Of a DNA stretch of 50,750 nucleotides, positions 429 to 29,759 are shown one piece after another. The notes below the pieces were generated by a model. That model did not search any database. It was not told where the DNA came from and was given only the letters and a program-made list of their open reading frames with translations. The position numbers were made by a program, and so were the translations under genes. Origin of the DNA: Nitrososphaerota archaeon (GTDB lineage Archaea; Thermoproteota; Nitrososphaeria; Nitrososphaerales; Nitrosopumilaceae); assembly GCA_028867785.1 (NCBI GenBank), contig JAGWFS010000002.1:337504-388253 (forward strand). Direction: 5' to 3'. Position 1 is the first letter of the stretch, and the number at the start of each line of letters is the position of its first letter.

Positions 429-480
429 TGATTAAAAATCATCAATTTTTAACGCTGTACAATATGTTTATTTCAAACAA

Positions 481-498
481 ACAAGATACTATATGGAA
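481..498 (+). promoter_or_regulatory. TATA-like promoter element shared with the gene at 26440
   Basis: ACAAGATACTATATGGAA here matches 17 of 18 bases at 26386-26403 (ACAAGGTACTATATGGAA). Both copies lie about 30-37 bases upstream of a start codon encoding a receiver-type N terminus. The core TACTATATGG looks like an archaeal TATA box. The promoter role is inferred from position and from the shared sequence. Confidence 0.45.
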
Positions 499-527
499 TA
501 TTTCGTAAACAGATTTGGACGTATTAT

Positions 528-578
528 ATGATCCTGAGAATACTTGCCGCAGAAGATAATCATGATTTAGCATGGTGA
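528..578 (+). pseudogene. relic of a response-regulator N terminus (16 codons)
   Basis: ATG at 528 opens a frame reading MILRILAAEDNHDLAW followed by TGA at 576. This is the beta-1/acidic-pair start of a CheY-like receiver and resembles the start of the receiver protein at 26440 (MRILVAEDNQDAA); about 27 of 32 bases match across that stretch. The frame stops before the phosphoacceptor Asp, so it cannot encode a working receiver. It lies directly upstream of the kinase start at 585. It is probably a truncated duplicate or recombination scar; a short upstream ORF that affects kinase translation is an alternative. Confidence 0.5.
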
Positions 579-584
579 AGTGAT

Positions 585-6131: not shown

Positions 6132-6521
6132 TTATCTCGCCCTCATAACTTTGCTTATCGCCATAGCTACGTTTGATCTGTCAAATGGCTTTACTGTGCA
6201 ATCGCTTGCACTAGATTTCATGGCACTCTGCACAATACGTTTTTGTTCTACTGGTGTCACCATGACATCTTTTGCCTTTTGATTTCCCCGTGTGATTGAT
6301 TTTAGGGCTTGGATGCCTTCTGCGTTTGGCATGTTTATGTCAGCGGTAGCAATATCGGGCCTGAGTTGTTTACATGACTCTACTGCAGCAAGCCAGTCTC
6401 CTGCCTTGCATACCTGGGACACAGGATCGTGGGAAATAGGCGCGTCCTTTAAGACAACGCTCATAAATGAAGCATCATTTACAATCAAAATTTTTGACAT
6501 ACTTGTAGAAGACACGGTCAT
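6132..6521 (-). CDS. diverged CheY paralogue (possibly impaired)
   Basis: A 129-residue receiver clearly related to the CheY at 10875; both share 'KPFDRSNVAM' and 'SKILIV'-type ends. The phosphoacceptor Asp (about residue 61, 'TADINMP'), the Thr ('MVTPVEQ') and Lys ('TVKPFD') remain. The first acidic pair has become Asn-Asp ('IVNDAS'), the Tyr/aromatic switch residue is Cys ('SDCTVKP'), and several glycines conserved in the paralogue are replaced (AGDG to AGDW, AGARD to SSASD). This could be a decaying copy or a CheY variant with altered phosphorylation or a phosphate-sink role. It sits in the operon between cheR and the second cheC. Confidence 0.8.
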   Translation of the reverse strand: MTVSSTSMSKILIVNDASFMSVVLKDAPISHDPVSQVCKAGDWLAAVESCKQLRPDIATADINMPNAEGIQALKSITRGNQKAKDVMVTPVEQKRIVQSAMKSSASDCTVKPFDRSNVAMAISKVMRAR

Positions 6522-13603: not shown

Positions 13604-14737
13604 TCAAGACTGGAGATTCTGAATAAGAAGAGAATGCCACTGGGAAGAATATGTCTCATATCCGGGAGAAAATGCGTGCGCTATGCAGCATTTTTCATCT
13701 TTGTATTCGGACACCGCAAATCCTTTCTTCTGGCTAAATAGATCGTTTTTACCTAGGAATTCAATTGTCTCCTCGAGTTCAAGATCTTTAGAGTCTGCAA
13801 GCAGCAGGCCATTCTTATCTACTATGCAAATTCTCGTTCTGTCCTTTTCTTCATCAGATATTGGAACGCCTTTTACGATGTTTTGTGCCAAGTCCTGCCA
13901 GCGAAATATGCCACCAAGTATGCCCAGAACTTGCCCGTTCTGGTCTCCATGTTCTCTTATTGTGCAGGAAAACACGAGACTGAGATCATTATTGACCATT
14001 GGGCATTTGCTGACTGTCTGAAATCCAAACTCTTTTCCGCTGTTGGTCTTCATTGCACTGGCAAACCATTCTGTGTTTTTTACATTCATGCCGACTGATC
14101 TATATGTCTCAGGTTTTCCATTTGCAACTATGTTTCCATCCAGATCGCACAAGACCAAGTCAAAATAAACAGTATAAGAATTCAATATGATGCCCATCCG
14201 TCTTGTTACTATATCGTACACTTCATTGGTCTTCAATGATAACGCGTTAACAACACTGTCATCGGTTGCCCACCAGCGTACATCGCATGATCTTTCATAC
14301 AGGTTTCTATCAATCAAATCAATGTTAGTCAGCGCAAGATCAGAAAGCCTGGTTCCTCTGACATTTGTAGCCTGTGTCTTTATGAGATTTCCCAGTTCGT
14401 CTATGGAGTCCCTGCTCTCATTTCTCATTTTCTTACTTACCACTCCGATCTTGCCCGAAAGATCGTTCATTTGTTCGGCAACAACTGAAAATGCCTTTCC
14501 AGCCATACCGGCCCTGCTTGCCTCAATTCTTGCATTGATTGCAATCATGTGCGTTTGCCCGTTCAATCGTTCTATCTCGCCTATTGCCGATTCTACTTTG
14601 CCTGCAAGAATCTCTGACAATTCTGCAACTCTTTCAAGCGTAAAGCTGCCGCCTTTTCCTTTTGCAGTGCTGGATTCTTGTAGCAGTGAGGTTGGCTTTG
14701 ACATGTTACTCATCCTAATCCACTTACTAGAAGACAA
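13604..14737 (-). CDS. soluble MCP-like receptor with C-terminal Cache-like domain (inverted order)
   Basis: A 377-residue protein without transmembrane segments. Near the N terminus (residues ~60-105) is a chemoreceptor signalling tip ('MIAINARIEASRAGMAGKAF', then 'SVVAEQMNDLSGKI'), the part that binds CheW/CheA. The C-terminal two thirds (~165-375) look like a PAS/Cache sensor, with 'DLVLCDLDGNIVANGKPE', 'NTEWFASAMKTNSG' and 'ICIVDKNGLLLADSKD' typical of double-Cache strands. Normal receptors place Cache outside the membrane and N-terminal to the signalling hairpin; here the order is reversed and everything is cytoplasmic. It probably senses an internal metabolite and feeds the adjacent Che system. 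Start at ATG 14737; ATGs at residues 8 and 12 are alternatives. Confidence 0.8.
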   Translation of the reverse strand: MSSSKWIRMSNMSKPTSLLQESSTAKGKGGSFTLERVAELSEILAGKVESAIGEIERLNGQTHMIAINARIEASRAGMAGKAFSVVAEQMNDLSGKIGVVSKKMRNESRDSIDELGNLIKTQATNVRGTRLSDLALTNIDLIDRNLYERSCDVRWWATDDSVVNALSLKTNEVYDIVTRRMGIILNSYTVYFDLVLCDLDGNIVANGKPETYRSVGMNVKNTEWFASAMKTNSGKEFGFQTVSKCPMVNNDLSLVFSCTIREHGDQNGQVLGILGGIFRWQDLAQNIVKGVPISDEEKDRTRICIVDKNGLLLADSKDLELEETIEFLGKNDLFSQKKGFAVSEYKDEKCCIAHAFSPGYETYSSQWHSLLIQNLQS

Positions 14738-14987: not shown

Positions 14988-15691
14988 ACAACCAATGAAC
15001 TCATCAAGACGTCGAACTCGTCGTGGAGTCATGGGTATAGAAGCTGCAATTGTTATGATTGCATTTGTAATAGTAGCTGCAGCTCTAGCATTCGTTGTAC
15101 TCAACATGGGTTTCTCGACTACACAAAAGGCAAAGATGGCAGTAGTCTCAAGTCAGACCGAAGCAAGTAGTGCACTAGAGATTGCCGGCAAGGTCACAGG
15201 TATAGGATTCCCAGCCAGTGGAGTGCTCAACGCCACCATCATACCAATCAAGGTTGCAAGTGGCGGAGATGCAGTCAACCTAAGTCCGACCCTTACCGAC
15301 ATCAAGTACTACAGCAATACAGTACGATACGACAACATCTATTCAAGCAAGTGCTTGCTGACATCTGCAACATATGGAAACGTAACAGGAGCGTTCAATG
15401 CAGCCGTATCAGCAACCTGCATCGACAAGGCGCCAATAAGCGGTGCTGCCACACCAGGTGCTCCGACCCATACACAGGCTATGATCTACTGGGATGTCGC
15501 AGGCGGCGTTCCGCTCAACGGCATACTTAGTGAGGGACAGCATGCAAACGTTGCAATAGCATACCAAAGCTCAGACAGACCAAGTGCACTTGACAACATC
15601 AAGGCAGAGATCATCGTACCAACCGGCTCTGCACTGACTATCGAGAGACAGGTACCGTCAGTGACTACAAACATAGTTGATCTAGGATAGG
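14988..15691 (+). repeat. 704-bp direct repeat, copy 1 (archaellin gene)
   Basis: The sequence from seven bases before the archaellin ATG to one base after its stop recurs at 16933-17636 with no difference that I could see. Flanks diverge immediately on both sides. The two copies are offset by 1,945 bases and bracket the cupredoxin gene. Confidence 0.9.
14995..15690 (+). CDS. flaB: archaellin (major archaellum filament protein), copy 1
   Basis: A 231-residue archaellin. A class III (type IV pilin-like) signal peptide, MNSSRRRTRRG, is followed by the hydrophobic helix 'VMGIEAAIVMIAFVIV'; cleavage by the prepilin peptidase FlaK/PibD is expected after Gly11. The rest is a beta-rich, Thr/Ser-rich globular domain that forms the filament surface. 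The product is 100% identical to the copy at 16940. A strong T-run follows the gene, so this copy is probably a monocistronic, highly expressed unit, while copy 2 leads the fla operon. The identical DNA implies very recent duplication or ongoing gene conversion. Confidence 0.94.
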   Translation: MNSSRRRTRRGVMGIEAAIVMIAFVIVAAALAFVVLNMGFSTTQKAKMAVVSSQTEASSALEIAGKVTGIGFPASGVLNATIIPIKVASGGDAVNLSPTLTDIKYYSNTVRYDNIYSSKCLLTSATYGNVTGAFNAAVSATCIDKAPISGAATPGAPTHTQAMIYWDVAGGVPLNGILSEGQHANVAIAYQSSDRPSALDNIKAEIIVPTGSALTIERQVPSVTTNIVDLG

Positions 15692-16932: not shown

Positions 16933-17636
16933 ACAACCAATGAACTCATCAAGACGTCGAACTCGTCGTGGAGTCATGGGTATAGAAGCTGCAATTGTTA
17001 TGATTGCATTTGTAATAGTAGCTGCAGCTCTAGCATTCGTTGTACTCAACATGGGTTTCTCGACTACACAAAAGGCAAAGATGGCAGTAGTCTCAAGTCA
17101 GACCGAAGCAAGTAGTGCACTAGAGATTGCCGGCAAGGTCACAGGTATAGGATTCCCAGCCAGTGGAGTGCTCAACGCCACCATCATACCAATCAAGGTT
17201 GCAAGTGGCGGAGATGCAGTCAACCTAAGTCCGACCCTTACCGACATCAAGTACTACAGCAATACAGTACGATACGACAACATCTATTCAAGCAAGTGCT
17301 TGCTGACATCTGCAACATATGGAAACGTAACAGGAGCGTTCAATGCAGCCGTATCAGCAACCTGCATCGACAAGGCGCCAATAAGCGGTGCTGCCACACC
17401 AGGTGCTCCGACCCATACACAGGCTATGATCTACTGGGATGTCGCAGGCGGCGTTCCGCTCAACGGCATACTTAGTGAGGGACAGCATGCAAACGTTGCA
17501 ATAGCATACCAAAGCTCAGACAGACCAAGTGCACTTGACAACATCAAGGCAGAGATCATCGTACCAACCGGCTCTGCACTGACTATCGAGAGACAGGTAC
17601 CGTCAGTGACTACAAACATAGTTGATCTAGGATAGG
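16933..17636 (+). repeat. 704-bp direct repeat, copy 2 (archaellin gene)
   Basis: Second copy of the direct repeat at 14988-15691. Homology ends one base after the stop codon, just before the ribosome-binding site of the next gene. Confidence 0.9.
16940..17635 (+). CDS. flaB: archaellin (major archaellum filament protein), copy 2
   Basis: Identical in every residue to the archaellin at 14995, with the same class III signal peptide and predicted cleavage after Gly11. Here no terminator follows; the next gene starts 11 bases after the stop with a GGAG ribosome-binding site. This copy therefore heads the polycistronic archaellum operon (flaB-flaX/DE-flaG-F-H-I-J). Most archaea with several archaellins use diverged copies for hook-like and filament segments; identical copies suggest a gene-dosage role instead. 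Confidence 0.94.
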   Translation: MNSSRRRTRRGVMGIEAAIVMIAFVIVAAALAFVVLNMGFSTTQKAKMAVVSSQTEASSALEIAGKVTGIGFPASGVLNATIIPIKVASGGDAVNLSPTLTDIKYYSNTVRYDNIYSSKCLLTSATYGNVTGAFNAAVSATCIDKAPISGAATPGAPTHTQAMIYWDVAGGVPLNGILSEGQHANVAIAYQSSDRPSALDNIKAEIIVPTGSALTIERQVPSVTTNIVDLG

Positions 17637-24389: not shown

Positions 24390-25544
24390 ATGGTGCCAAA
24401 AATTCTTGGAATAATAGGCGGAGGCCAGCTTGGGATGATGCTGGCCGAGGCGGCAAAGAACATGCCAGAACACATATCCAAAGTCATAGTTTTAGACCCG
24501 ACGGAAAACTGTCCAGCAGCAAGAGTGGGGGCAGAGCAGATTGTCGCAGATTTCAAAGACAAAAATGCCATAGAAAAACTGGCTGCGAAATCGGACATGA
24601 TCACATATGAAATAGAATCAGGAAATAGCATGGTGTTAGAATCACTGGATGCTTCAGTATCTGTAAATCCGTCTCCTGCAACACTTAGGATTATTCAAGA
24701 CAAGTTTGCACAGAAAACATTTCTAAAAGACAATGGTATCCCAGTACCAGAGTTTCTCCCAATAGAGTCACTGTCAGATCTGAAAGATAAAACACCGGCA
24801 TTTGGATATCCGGTTCTCCTAAAGGCAAGGCGTGATGCATATGATGGCAGAGGAAATTTCAAGATAGAAAAAAAAGACCAGATAGAACCGGCATACAAAC
24901 TGTTTGAAGACAGGCAGATGATGATTGAGAGGTGGATCAATTTTAAGATGGAAGTGTCTGTAATTGCGGCACGTAATACTAGTGGCGAGATCACCACATA
25001 TCCAGTTGTAGAGAACATCCACAAGGAAAACATACTGGAGATGACCATAGCTCCTGCAAGAGTAGACCAAACAGTAACAAAAAATGCAGAAGACATTGCA
25101 AAAAAGACCATGGAGGTACTACACGGGGCTGGTGTTTTCGGCATAGAGATGTTTGTAACCTCTGATGACCAAGTGTTGATTAACGAGATAGCACCAAGGG
25201 TGCACAACTCTGGACACCACACGTTACAGTCAAGTGAGACATCACAATTTGAACAGCATCTTAGAGCAATACTGGGCCTTTCTTTAGGGAGCACCAGACT
25301 GAGGCACTATGCAGTCATGCGCAACATACTTGGGCCAAAAGACTTTGTTGGCAAATACAAGCCTATAACCATGCCAAAAAAAGACGGAGTCTATTTGAAG
25401 ATGTACAACAAGGACGAAGCCAAGCCTCAGCGCAAACTCGGGCACATCAATGTAATAGACGTCAAAGATACAAAAGACATCAGCATGCTCATCGGCAGTG
25501 CCAATCAAGCAAGGGATTCGATAAGATTTGAACAATTAACATAG
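24390..25544 (+). CDS. purK: N5-carboxyaminoimidazole ribonucleotide synthase
   Basis: A 384-residue ATP-grasp enzyme of normal length. PurK makes N5-CAIR from AIR, bicarbonate and ATP in purine synthesis. The N-terminal Rossmann motif is 'GIIGGGQLGMMLAEAA'; ATP-grasp features include 'PVLLKARRDAYDGRGNF', 'MIERWINFKMEVSV' and the metal-binding 'GVFGIEMFV...VLINEIAPRVHNSGH'. The start may be ATG 24390 or GTG 24393. Its partner purE lies 2.4 kb downstream on the same strand, separated by two unrelated genes. Confidence 0.95.
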   Translation: MVPKILGIIGGGQLGMMLAEAAKNMPEHISKVIVLDPTENCPAARVGAEQIVADFKDKNAIEKLAAKSDMITYEIESGNSMVLESLDASVSVNPSPATLRIIQDKFAQKTFLKDNGIPVPEFLPIESLSDLKDKTPAFGYPVLLKARRDAYDGRGNFKIEKKDQIEPAYKLFEDRQMMIERWINFKMEVSVIAARNTSGEITTYPVVENIHKENILEMTIAPARVDQTVTKNAEDIAKKTMEVLHGAGVFGIEMFVTSDDQVLINEIAPRVHNSGHHTLQSSETSQFEQHLRAILGLSLGSTRLRHYAVMRNILGPKDFVGKYKPITMPKKDGVYLKMYNKDEAKPQRKLGHINVIDVKDTKDISMLIGSANQARDSIRFEQLT

Positions 25545-26110: not shown

Positions 26111-26439
26111 GGCGAGTGATGGAACACGCTTTCATATAATTTAAAAGCCTGAATCCTACCAACCTGTCAAATCTCATCCAGGGTTAAGATTTATCGATAA
26201 TTCAGGCGCTTGCAGGCCACTTGTCAAATCCTGTCTTTGTTTTACTGCCATACAAACTGTAGCTCCAAGATTTCCAGTACAAAACATCAAGTACGGGGGA
26301 TTACGGCATTGGCGAGGAGTCGGCGGAGCTTGCCTGCAAACAAAGCGCATTTTTCAGCTCTGCACAATGCGTTTGTTCTAGACAGACAAGGTACTATATG
26401 GAAACGCCCTGCATGCAAATCAGATAAAGCTTGGGTGGT
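26111..26439. other. intergenic region with promoter element for the gene at 26440
   Basis: About 330 bases between divergent genes. The only feature I can support is the promoter-like ACAAGGTACTATATGGAA at 26386-26403, shared with the element at 481-498. Open frames on both strands here have no domain resemblance. Confidence 0.5.
26386..26403 (+). promoter_or_regulatory. TATA-like promoter element shared with 481-498
   Basis: 17 of 18 bases match the element upstream of the receiver relic at 528. It lies 37 bases before ATG 26440. The shared unit of promoter plus receiver start suggests a duplicated 5' region. Confidence 0.45.
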
Positions 26440-27765
26440 ATGAGAATACTTGTCGCCGAAGACAATCAGGACGCAGCCGACATATACAAAAGTACACTTG
26501 AAAATAGGGGCCATATAGTTACAATGGCAAGAGACGGCGGCAGATGCCTTCAAACATATTTTGATCACATGAAAAAAAATGATCATGGAATACTTTTTGA
26601 TGTAATAATATTAGATCAGCAAATGCCCGACATGAGCGGCATAGATGTTGCCAAGGAAATTCAGAGGGCCAACCCAAAACAGAGAATAATCTTCATTACT
26701 GGATACGGGGTTGAGATTTTCGAAAAATTGAAGGACCTCAAAGAAAAAGTCGAGATCATGAACAAACCGCTTGCATTAAAAGCATTAATTGCTCAAATTG
26801 AGGGATATTCGACACAAAAAGAGGATGGGCCTCACATGAAAACTGGCAATGAGGCTCACAAGAGACCGGCAAATCTACAACCATCAGAGACGCACAAGAT
26901 GAACTCTAACCAGTTACTTGATTACGTACCACCTGAAGAGATCGTCAATAGGATCAGAAGGGAAAACATGGTACTGCATGGTAGTACGGCAGTAAAAAAA
27001 TCAAAACCAAAGATTAATGCAAAAAATATGCTTAAAGCAGAATTTATTGCACTGCCAGTACTTGCAGTCCTGTTTTTCTACGCAATTGACAACTATTATC
27101 AATCTAACCAGTTTGGCATTTTTCCATATGTCATGGCAAGTTATTCCGTGGAGGATCTTCAGGGTCAAACAAGCGCCGTTCATCACTGGCATATTGCCAA
27201 AGAAACCCCTTTAACGGTAAGCATAGTGAACCTAGGCAACCTAAGCCAAGAAAAAGTCAACATTATCAAAGATTCCATCCTTTCAACAGACGTATTGCAC
27301 GTTGACAATTCATTTCTTGGCGGAATTGTATCAGGTAAAAAATCAGAATATTTCATAGGTTGGAAAGGAGCGCTAGATGTGATAAATGACACAAAGTTTT
27401 ACATACCAAATCAATTCAATATCGTAGACTCGCCTAACAGCCCAAGTCAGATTGCGATATTTTTATCAAATAGTAAAAACCCAGATGGCTACTCTGCATA
27501 TACAAAGATGGTTGTGGCTAATTCTCAGATCTTGAAATCTTTTATTACCATTTATGATGCAGACAAGTTTTCTGACATCCAGCTTGCAGAAATATCAAGG
27601 CATGAGTTTGGCCGTGCCTTGGGCCTTGGGAATTCTAATGGATCTCAAGATGTCATGAATGATACGATTCAGGCAAATCACCAGTACATATCAGAGTGCG
27701 ATGTTGCTGCAATACAGTCGTTGTATGACGGAAACATTCAGAACAAATGGTCCTGCGATACCTGA
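26440..27765 (+). CDS. receiver domain fused through a membrane helix to a matrixin-like domain with incomplete zinc site
   Basis: A 441-residue fusion. Residues 1-120 are a CheY-like receiver: 'VAEDNQDA', phosphoacceptor in 'VIILDQQMPDMSG', Thr in 'FITGYG' and Lys in 'IMNKPLA'. A ~80-residue basic linker leads to one transmembrane helix ('FIALPVLAVLFFYAI', about residues 207-221). The remaining ~215 residues would lie outside. Their end reads 'EISRHEFGRALGLGNSNGS' then 'DVMND', the frame of a matrixin metalloprotease (HExxHxxGxxH plus Met-turn) with the second and third zinc His replaced by Arg and Asn. So it is probably catalytically dead. It may relay phosphorylation to an extracellular binding function. 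The frame also offers TTG 26431; ATG 26440 is preferred. Confidence 0.75.
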   Translation: MRILVAEDNQDAADIYKSTLENRGHIVTMARDGGRCLQTYFDHMKKNDHGILFDVIILDQQMPDMSGIDVAKEIQRANPKQRIIFITGYGVEIFEKLKDLKEKVEIMNKPLALKALIAQIEGYSTQKEDGPHMKTGNEAHKRPANLQPSETHKMNSNQLLDYVPPEEIVNRIRRENMVLHGSTAVKKSKPKINAKNMLKAEFIALPVLAVLFFYAIDNYYQSNQFGIFPYVMASYSVEDLQGQTSAVHHWHIAKETPLTVSIVNLGNLSQEKVNIIKDSILSTDVLHVDNSFLGGIVSGKKSEYFIGWKGALDVINDTKFYIPNQFNIVDSPNSPSQIAIFLSNSKNPDGYSAYTKMVVANSQILKSFITIYDADKFSDIQLAEISRHEFGRALGLGNSNGSQDVMNDTIQANHQYISECDVAAIQSLYDGNIQNKWSCDT

Positions 27766-27899: not shown

Positions 27900-28472
27900 G
27901 TGACCTATTCAAAAAAGCCCCTTGTTGGAATCATCATGGGTTCAAGCTCAGACAGCAAGGTCATGCATTCTGCAGCCGTGGTTCTAGACGAGTTTGGCGT
28001 CAAGCACGAGGACCAGATTGTATCAGCCCACCGAACTCCAACCAGACTCTCAGACTATGCAAGACATGCAGAAATCGAGGGGTTCAGGGTGATAATTGCA
28101 GGAGCGGGAGGATCAGCCCACCTTCCAGGAATGGTTGCGTCGCATACCATGGTTCCGGTGATAGGGGTACCGATAATGGTGTATAACGACAGGGGCCACT
28201 CGGACAGATTCAAGTTTTCTGCCTTTGGCGGGCTGGATTCTTTATTATCCATATCTGAAATGCCGACGGGATCACCTGTTGTGACCGTGGGGGTGAACAA
28301 GGCTGCAAATGCCGGGCTTTACGCAGTCAAGGTTCTGGCAAACGAGTTTCCAGATCTCAAGAAAAAATTAAAGACATACAAGGAAGAGCAGCACAGGTCA
28401 GTCATCAGGGAATCAGACGAACTGCGCAAGATGGGACTGGCCCGATTCACAAGTAAGAAATTTAAAAAATAA
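27900..28472 (+). CDS. purE: N5-carboxyaminoimidazole ribonucleotide mutase
   Basis: A ~190-residue class I PurE, which moves the carboxyl group of N5-CAIR to give CAIR. Characteristic segments are 'VGIIMGSSSDSKVM', 'VSAHRTPTRLSDYA' (substrate-binding SAHRTP), 'GAGGSAHLPGMVASHT' and 'PVIGVPI'. The C-terminal ~25 residues are a basic tail ('MGLARFTSKKFKK') longer than in many bacteria. The start is GTG; I prefer 27900 because of the TATA spacing. It works directly after PurK, whose gene is on the same strand upstream. Confidence 0.95.
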   Translation: MTYSKKPLVGIIMGSSSDSKVMHSAAVVLDEFGVKHEDQIVSAHRTPTRLSDYARHAEIEGFRVIIAGAGGSAHLPGMVASHTMVPVIGVPIMVYNDRGHSDRFKFSAFGGLDSLLSISEMPTGSPVVTVGVNKAANAGLYAVKVLANEFPDLKKKLKTYKEEQHRSVIRESDELRKMGLARFTSKKFKK

Positions 28473-28481
28473 AATCCTGTT

Positions 28482-29759
28482 CTAGGCCTTGAGATTCGAT
28501 ATTTGCACCAGGTGTCTTGAAAAATATATCGGATAGATTTCTCCAGTTCCCGGATGAGTGTAATTCCATCTTTTATCGTCAGGGTTGATTTTTGTGAACT
28601 GCTCTGCAAACTCGGAAGAGAGCAGCCCATATGCTGCACTGCCAATCGTTGTTTGATTTGGCTGGGCAAGCGGCAGTATTTTGGATGCTATTGTGATGCT
28701 GTGTCCAATCAAATCCGGATCCGAACCGAGAAAGACTATCCTGTTCTTTCCCGCATCAATGCCTATTCTCACACTGATGGTCGGCAGACCAAGGCTTGCA
28801 AAGATTGGATTGATGGAATATTTTATCAGCATATTCATCGAGTTTGCGCATCTTACGGCATTTTCTGCCATGTTTCCAAATTCCTTGAGCTCTGGAAAGA
28901 AGGCAATCACCGCGTCTCCCGCGTACTTTAACACAAATCCTGCATGTTTTGACACTATGACAGACATTTCCTCTGAGAATACCTTGATGAGGCCCGAGAG
29001 CTCCTCTGAGCTGAGAAGCGTTGCAAGCTTTGTAGAGCCCACTATGTCCACATACAGGACTGCAACATTGATTTCCTGCTCCGGCCACAGGCTGAGAAAC
29101 CTGCTTGCGACGTATTTTAGAAAAGCCTGGGAATACGAATCAGACATTTTCATCTTATACAGGGAAAAGTTTCTCTTCACCCTGGTCATGCTCTCTATTA
29201 CTACGGCGTCATCGGCAGAAAGAATCTGGAACCTCTCAATAGGTTTGACATGGTATATCACGGACTCCAGCACGTTTAGCGGGACAAACTTCTTCTCAAG
29301 TACGTCATAGTACCCCTTTTCGCCCTCAATTTGCGGAGGCACAACCTTCATGTTTTCGGTAGCAAAGCCAAACGGAAAAGACGTGTTCTGGTTCTTGGCA
29401 GCGGTCAGTATGACGCCATCATACTCGTTTAGGGCCAGTGCCTGCTCATTTTCCACCCCGGAGCCGATATCTATCACCCGGGATACCTGGAATATGGTAA
29501 TCTTGCCTGTTTTTGAGTTTGATTTTAGTATCTCAACCACGTCGTTTTCAATGTTGTCTGGAACTGTCACCTGCACAACATACTTGTCCTGAAACTCCGA
29601 GCGGTACATCTCCGTGCCTTTTGCGGCATGAACTTTCGAGCCAACGCCTTTCCCCCTTCCCCTGACCTTTGATACGTTCACAGATACGTCTATTATCCTA
29701 AGCGCGTCGCTTACGCCCATCAGATCATTTCTAGGAACTTCTGCCTCAATTCGTATCAT
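28482..29759 (-). CDS. PII-like domain fused to a class III nucleotide cyclase domain
   Basis: A 425-residue protein. Residues ~1-105 resemble PII signal proteins (GlnB/GlnK): 'VSVNVSKVRGRGKGVG' then 'KGTEMYRSEF' in T-loop position, 'YVVQVTVPDN', and 'SKTGKITIFQVSRVIDIGSG' as the B/C-loop and final strand. Residues ~228-375 are a class III adenylate/guanylate cyclase domain: first metal Asp238 in 'YVDIVGSTK', Lys278 and second metal Asp282 in 'LKYAGDAVIAF', and 'SVRIGIDAG'. The transition-state Asn and Arg positions read Thr356 and Lys360 ('IGHSITIASK'), so activity may be altered. No transmembrane helix. It could convert nitrogen or energy status into a cyclic nucleotide signal. Convergent with purE. 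Confidence 0.78.
   Translation of the reverse strand: MIRIEAEVPRNDLMGVSDALRIIDVSVNVSKVRGRGKGVGSKVHAAKGTEMYRSEFQDKYVVQVTVPDNIENDVVEILKSNSKTGKITIFQVSRVIDIGSGVENEQALALNEYDGVILTAAKNQNTSFPFGFATENMKVVPPQIEGEKGYYDVLEKKFVPLNVLESVIYHVKPIERFQILSADDAVVIESMTRVKRNFSLYKMKMSDSYSQAFLKYVASRFLSLWPEQEINVAVLYVDIVGSTKLATLLSSEELSGLIKVFSEEMSVIVSKHAGFVLKYAGDAVIAFFPELKEFGNMAENAVRCANSMNMLIKYSINPIFASLGLPTISVRIGIDAGKNRIVFLGSDPDLIGHSITIASKILPLAQPNQTTIGSAAYGLLSSEFAEQFTKINPDDKRWNYTHPGTGEIYPIYFSRHLVQISNLKA

Follow-up and report, generated by a model that had tools for sequence, protein, structure and literature searches.

The window analyzed here, a stretch of 50,750 nucleotides from a Nitrososphaerota archaeon, contains a gene at 26440-27765 (+) encoding a 441 amino acid protein in which a receiver domain, a linker, a transmembrane (TM) helix and a predicted exported pseudo-matrixin domain follow one another on a single chain. 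The open reading frame begins with an ATG at 26440, with a TTG in frame at 26431, and its stop codon ends at 27765. It lies between two genes that we take, from general sequence knowledge, to be purK-like (24390-25544, +) and purE-like (27936-28472, +). The gene after purE encodes a class III nucleotidyl cyclase (28482-29759, -; PF00211, 2.4e-9) with an N-terminus resembling the nitrogen regulator P-II (PF00543, 5.3e-5, just below the cut-off); this may be a cyclase that senses nitrogen in an ammonia oxidiser. Elsewhere in the window, two archaellin- or pilin-like genes separated by one gene (14995-15690 and 16940-17635, +) are identical at 231/231 residues, which could be explained by a duplication of recent date, by gene conversion or by an effect of the assembly.

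Domain layout and second occurrence of the fusion

The receiver domain (aa 1-124; 26440-26811, +) matches the Pfam family Response_reg (PF00072) at aa 3-120 with an E-value of 3.9e-16 and 59.6 bits, compared with a curated cut-off of 30.2. By direct reading, all phosphorylation residues are retained, namely E7/D8, the phospho-acceptor D59 (codon 26614-26616), T87 and K109. The following linker (26812-27030, +) is modeled with low confidence; towards its end it can be aligned with the juxtamembrane coiled-coil found in TM-matrixins that are not fused. A single TM helix (about aa 198-220; 27031-27099, +) comes next, its cytoplasmic side rich in lysine. Because KKSKPKINAKNMLK precedes this one hydrophobic helix, the N-terminus is predicted to lie inside, which would place the receiver in the cytoplasm and the matrixin-fold domain outside the cell. 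In a full-length AlphaFold2 model the receiver, the TM helix and the ectodomain core are folded while the linker is not; given the overall pTM of 0.46, we leave the domain arrangement unclaimed.

The ectodomain (aa 221-441; 27100-27762, +) was assigned through a structure model and fold matches. Pfam detects Peptidase_M10 at aa 375-429 (E-value 5.2e-7; 30.1 bits, cut-off 24), and the AlphaFold2 model of the ectodomain (pLDDT 83, pTM 0.84) has karilysin (4r3v) as its best structural match in Foldseek and VIA-align (Z 15.5, rmsd 3.2, 161 aligned residues), with MMP-9 at a Z of about 14-15. The sequence HEFGRALGLGN (27601-27633, +) retains His-1 and the catalytic Glu of the matrixin zinc motif HExxHxxGxxH/D, to which it does not conform, with Arg in place of His-2 and Asn in place of His-3. 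It is followed by the Met-turn DVMND (27649-27663, +). Proteolysis by this domain is predicted to be absent, judging from the lost ligands. A sequence-only reading of the window had described an intact receiver ahead of one membrane helix and an exported domain with the layout of a matrixin zinc site, two of its three His lost. Pfam, the individual residues and the predicted topology bear out this description, and a fold unrelated to metzincins is excluded by the structural matches.

Searching 200 genomes from the taxonomic family, and then 37 from the genus, turned up one further fusion, which brings the count to 2/37 genus genomes. The second fusion, from the independently assembled genome G151, shares the purK-purE insertion site and the neighbors of the window gene, has HEFGHALGLSN and QNMVQD at the positions of the zinc motif and Met-turn, and is 66-68% identical to the window protein in the ectodomain and 66% in the receiver. 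An assembly fusion is ruled out, as gene and flanks are common to two independent assemblies. The earlier reading had held that orthologues split into two genes would expose such an artefact. The split literally exists, receiver and matrixin being separate in nearly all relatives, but it is no sign of misassembly in a fusion carried by two genomes; the split state is probably older than the fusion. We lean slightly towards viewing the protein as a natural fusion of two pathway partners, through which a signal from inside the cell would pass via the membrane helix to the exported matrixin-fold domain.

The TM-matrixin family and its zinc site

The window protein belongs to a family of TM-matrixins, having a homologous ectodomain after the TM helix that is 50-65% identical to the nearest members in the genus; tree support for this placement is 98/97 and 100/99. 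A profile of the family finds matches in 67/131 good genomes of the taxonomic family, covering 10/20 genera with up to nine copies per genome. Outside the taxonomic family, only three genomes, all of the same order, match at E<=1e-15. NCBIfam has no specific name for these proteins.

The three-His zinc motif is intact in 81 of 95 catalogued family members and incomplete in 14. Zinc ligands have been lost more than once, and the fusion is not the cause, since unfused relatives have undergone such losses as well: the nearest membrane-anchored paralogue in the window genome, itself unfused, reads HEFGNALGFPH and has lost His-2, six further losses fall in one sub-clade of unfused genus genes, four occur in multi-TM forms and one elsewhere. 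The multi-TM matrixin proteins are encoded as divergent pairs with one zinc-intact and one degenerate copy (L044, L068, L110 and L112). Whether ligands were missing throughout the orthologues or in the window alone had been posed as alternatives, and neither describes the family. A search for an active paralogue had also been suggested; the nearest membrane-anchored candidate in the window genome is itself degenerate while the sister genome G151 has an intact one.

These gene pairs bear on a model in which the dead matrixin associates with an active one or holds it in check, much as iRhoms act as pseudo-enzyme partners of rhomboids, the balance being set by the receiver. G151, where a zinc-intact unfused TM-matrixin accompanies the dead fusion, and the four sampled loci with divergent active and dead multi-TM genes fit such an arrangement. 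The window genome fits it poorly, as its only other membrane-anchored family paralogue is the His-2-deficient protein and intact motifs are kept only in more distant matrixins. We regard this model as quite unlikely, and a signal relayed across the membrane within the fusion itself remains our preferred reading.

The dead ectodomain is under purifying selection, though relaxed relative to its unfused paralogue. In pairwise GY94 comparisons between the two fusion genomes, where some dS values exceed 1 and exact omegas are soft, omega is 0.18 for the fused receiver (LRT against 1: 25.9), 0.36 for the linker and TM helix (LRT 9.6) and 0.26 for the zinc-degenerate ectodomain (LRT 41.7), compared with 0.12 for the unfused ectodomain, 0.09 for purK and 0.07 for the kinase. 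A decaying pseudogene is ruled out by omegas well below 1 in both receiver and ectodomain. The sequence-only reading had gone further and suggested a pseudo-protease as a new signaling output. A real and constrained dead domain is found here, but the family is mostly zinc-intact and the pseudo-protease represents a derived branch.

The same values can be set against the view that the protein is merely a membrane-tethered receiver, its ectodomain a vestigial anchor and its receiver a cytoplasmic phosphate sink or competitor for the kinase and a further receiver (receiver C, below). The lost zinc site and the roughly twofold relaxation of the ectodomain relative to the unfused paralogue would agree with this, as would the prevalence of stand-alone receivers, which account for 172/224 thaumarchaeal regulators in the 2018 archaeal census (PMC5847659). 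A vestigial anchor would however not be expected to show an omega significantly below 1, to retain the fold residues and a near-invariant Cys pair, or to be as conserved between the two fusions (68% identity) as the receiver (66%). We consider a mere tether unlikely, though the least so of the alternatives weighed here, and continue to favor an ectodomain that receives a signal from inside.

Origin of the fused parts and receiver linkage

The conserved locus in relatives comprises a TrmB-like gene, a large surface protein, a CBS protein, the TM-matrixin and, tail to tail with it, receiver A, followed by a beta-propeller protein, a TPR-like protein, receiver B, a histidine kinase and receiver C, with chemotaxis genes farther on; the TrmB-like and TPR-like genes are presumably what these names imply, assigned as they were from general sequence knowledge. 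The direct neighbor of the matrixin in the ancestral locus is thus receiver A and not B, a point against the coupling proposed here. The fused receiver is nevertheless of class B. Its identity to single class B receivers is mostly 57-69%, compared with 48-54% to the second copy of a tandem B pair in some genomes, about 45-48% to class A and about 37-42% to class C. The receiver tree places the fused receivers with class B (90/99) and apart from A and C, although it joins the two to each other only at 89/60, and they carry the signature residues of class B. Tree and signature residues together rule out an origin from the neighboring class A or C.

Class B receivers of relatives are stand-alone proteins encoded directly upstream of the histidine kinase gene on the same strand. 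In both fusion genomes this receiver is missing between the TPR gene and the kinase, leaving an empty site of 156 bp in the window (429-584) and about 125 bp at L032. The membrane histidine kinase beside the empty site (585-2048, +), with HisKA and HATPase_c domains and the H-box SHELKSP, is likely cognate to the fused receiver because receiver B directly precedes it in relatives; the partner kinase for which the earlier reading had proposed a search may thus have been located through gene order. The stand-alone receiver C (2091-2519, +) is the downstream partner of this kinase. Beside the chemotaxis genes of the window, a second CheY-like gene (6132-6521, -) has VND instead of VDD in the acidic pocket while the phospho-acceptor Asp, the Thr and the Lys are apparently retained. 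A soluble-looking protein (13604-14713, -) carries a short N-terminal MCP signaling stretch followed by a weak dCache match, reversing the usual order.

In the ectodomain tree, the fused ectodomains pair at 100/100 and fall within the clade (98/97) formed by the ancestral TM-matrixin of the genus. As both fusion genomes retain the unfused ancestral protein, the fusion ectodomain represents a copy, in agreement with its place in the tree. The shared insertion site and the empty B site suggest as the simplest history a single transfer of receiver B into the purK-purE gap and its fusion to a duplicated matrixin.

Linkage of TM-matrixins to receivers extends beyond the fusion. We sampled 57 loci, selected either solely on their matrixin part or with no regard to neighbors, with regions at fixed round coordinates serving as controls. 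In 38 of these loci (35 on the same strand) the TM-matrixin has a receiver gene no more than 300 bp away, compared with 0/78 control genes; the Fisher p of 1e-19 is uncorrected for shared ancestry and overstates independence, the loci being related. Kinase genes are found within 1.5 kb in 22/57 loci. Despite this relatedness of the loci, several arrangements, with the receiver upstream and overlapping, upstream at 5-9 bp, downstream at 52 bp, downstream and overlapping, or tail to tail, appear repeatedly across different clades of the ectodomain tree. Against a general coupling, the remaining 19/57 loci lack a receiver gene within the 300 bp range; among them are the multi-TM and Cache-like types as well as a clade whose members come from several genera. 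At L114 (2879-4657, +), the N-terminal part of a 592-aa TM-matrixin resembles, by eye only, an extracellular Cache-type sensor.

Fourteen TM-matrixins match a histidine-kinase profile in their cytoplasmic N-terminus with an intact H-box (e.g. NHELRTPLVPI), apparently without an ATPase domain. Four of them (L095, L096, L103 and L104) were run against Pfam, which lists HisKA at E-values of 4.2e-9 to 4.1e-12 and no HATPase_c. A receiver gene precedes most HisKA forms by 5-9 bp, and in many cases a kinase gene is close by. The HisKA domain puts a phospho-acceptor or docking module on one chain with an exported protease domain.

Fusion and gene neighborhood argue by guilt by association for coupling of receiver and matrixin. 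They indicate functional linkage, not its direction, and the ectodomain might feed the receiver instead, binding an extracellular ligand and changing receiver behavior inside. Receptors normally signal outside-in, and HisKA takes the place of a sensor kinase's transmitter on some TM-matrixins. Against this, the HisKA forms examined contain no HATPase, and most family members keep an intact catalytic motif for which a pure ligand sensor would have no need. Such a sensor appears improbable to us, the most so of the readings considered, and signaling outwards from the receiver is developed below.

Proposed signaling route and comparison with known systems

We propose that D59 of the cytoplasmic receiver accepts a phosphate from a histidine kinase, for which the protein encoded at 585-2048 is the most likely candidate. 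Phosphorylation would alter receiver dimerisation, and this change would travel along the juxtamembrane helix and on via the one membrane helix, so that the matrixin-fold domain, placed outside the cell by the predicted topology, would shift its pairing or exposure. It is possible that phosphorylation sets the position or clustering of the pseudo-protease. Most relatives would divide this task between two proteins, a stand-alone receiver and an apparently active matrixin anchored in the membrane, which often bears HisKA on its inner side; for the family, the usual outcome would be regulated proteolysis outside the cell. The branch of the window protein has lost the zinc site but kept the fold, and there the domain probably works by binding, either to a substrate on the surface or to a partner that is catalytically active. 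For the family as a whole, we see an even chance that these genes constitute two-component pathways with an exported matrixin output driven by receiver or HisKA, of which the window protein would be a one-piece, phosphorylation-controlled binder.

Few targets of thaumarchaeal stand-alone receivers are known, and the recurrent pairing with TM-matrixins offers a concrete target for many of them. The fusion serves as a natural experiment, pointing to one receiver class and one kinase. If the proposal is true, extracellular proteolysis would be a direct, non-transcriptional two-component output in globally important nitrifiers. In the open-access literature we found no report linking a matrixin or metalloprotease to a response regulator, a receiver or Nitrosopumilus. 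Adamalysin and matrixin genes are noted in sponge-associated Nitrosopumilus, and we saw no signaling link mentioned with them (PMC6697440). The 2018 census describes HisKA proteins without HATPase, mainly from other archaea, and a REC-BcsA protein; the words 'peptidase' and 'protease' are absent from its main text, and we saw no exported matrixin-fold output described there (PMC5847659).

The window protein shares with matrixins such as karilysin (M10A) the predicted fold (Z 15.5), the position of the HExxH helix and the Met-turn, but it lacks two zinc ligands, is membrane-anchored and has a cytoplasmic receiver attached. Bidirectional signaling by GacS/RetS also lets a cytoplasmic event alter the extracellular domain of a two-component protein; there the ligand affinity of a sensor kinase is tuned, whereas here a matrixin fold lies outside (PMC12148439). 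Inside-out control of proteolysis is known in bacteria from LapD-LapG, which responds to another signal: similar to our proposal, a cytoplasmic signal crosses the membrane via a receptor and controls proteolysis beyond the inner membrane (PMC3032545, PMC3032553). The degenerate GGDEF/EAL c-di-GMP module and the HAMP domain of LapD type are absent from the fusion, for which Pfam at E<=1 gives one sub-threshold match besides the receiver and the matrixin. The signal that LapD senses is c-di-GMP, and the protease it recruits is a distinct periplasmic protein (PMC3032545, PMC3032553), whereas in the family described here the cytoplasmic modules are a receiver or HisKA and the membrane protein itself contains the protease fold.
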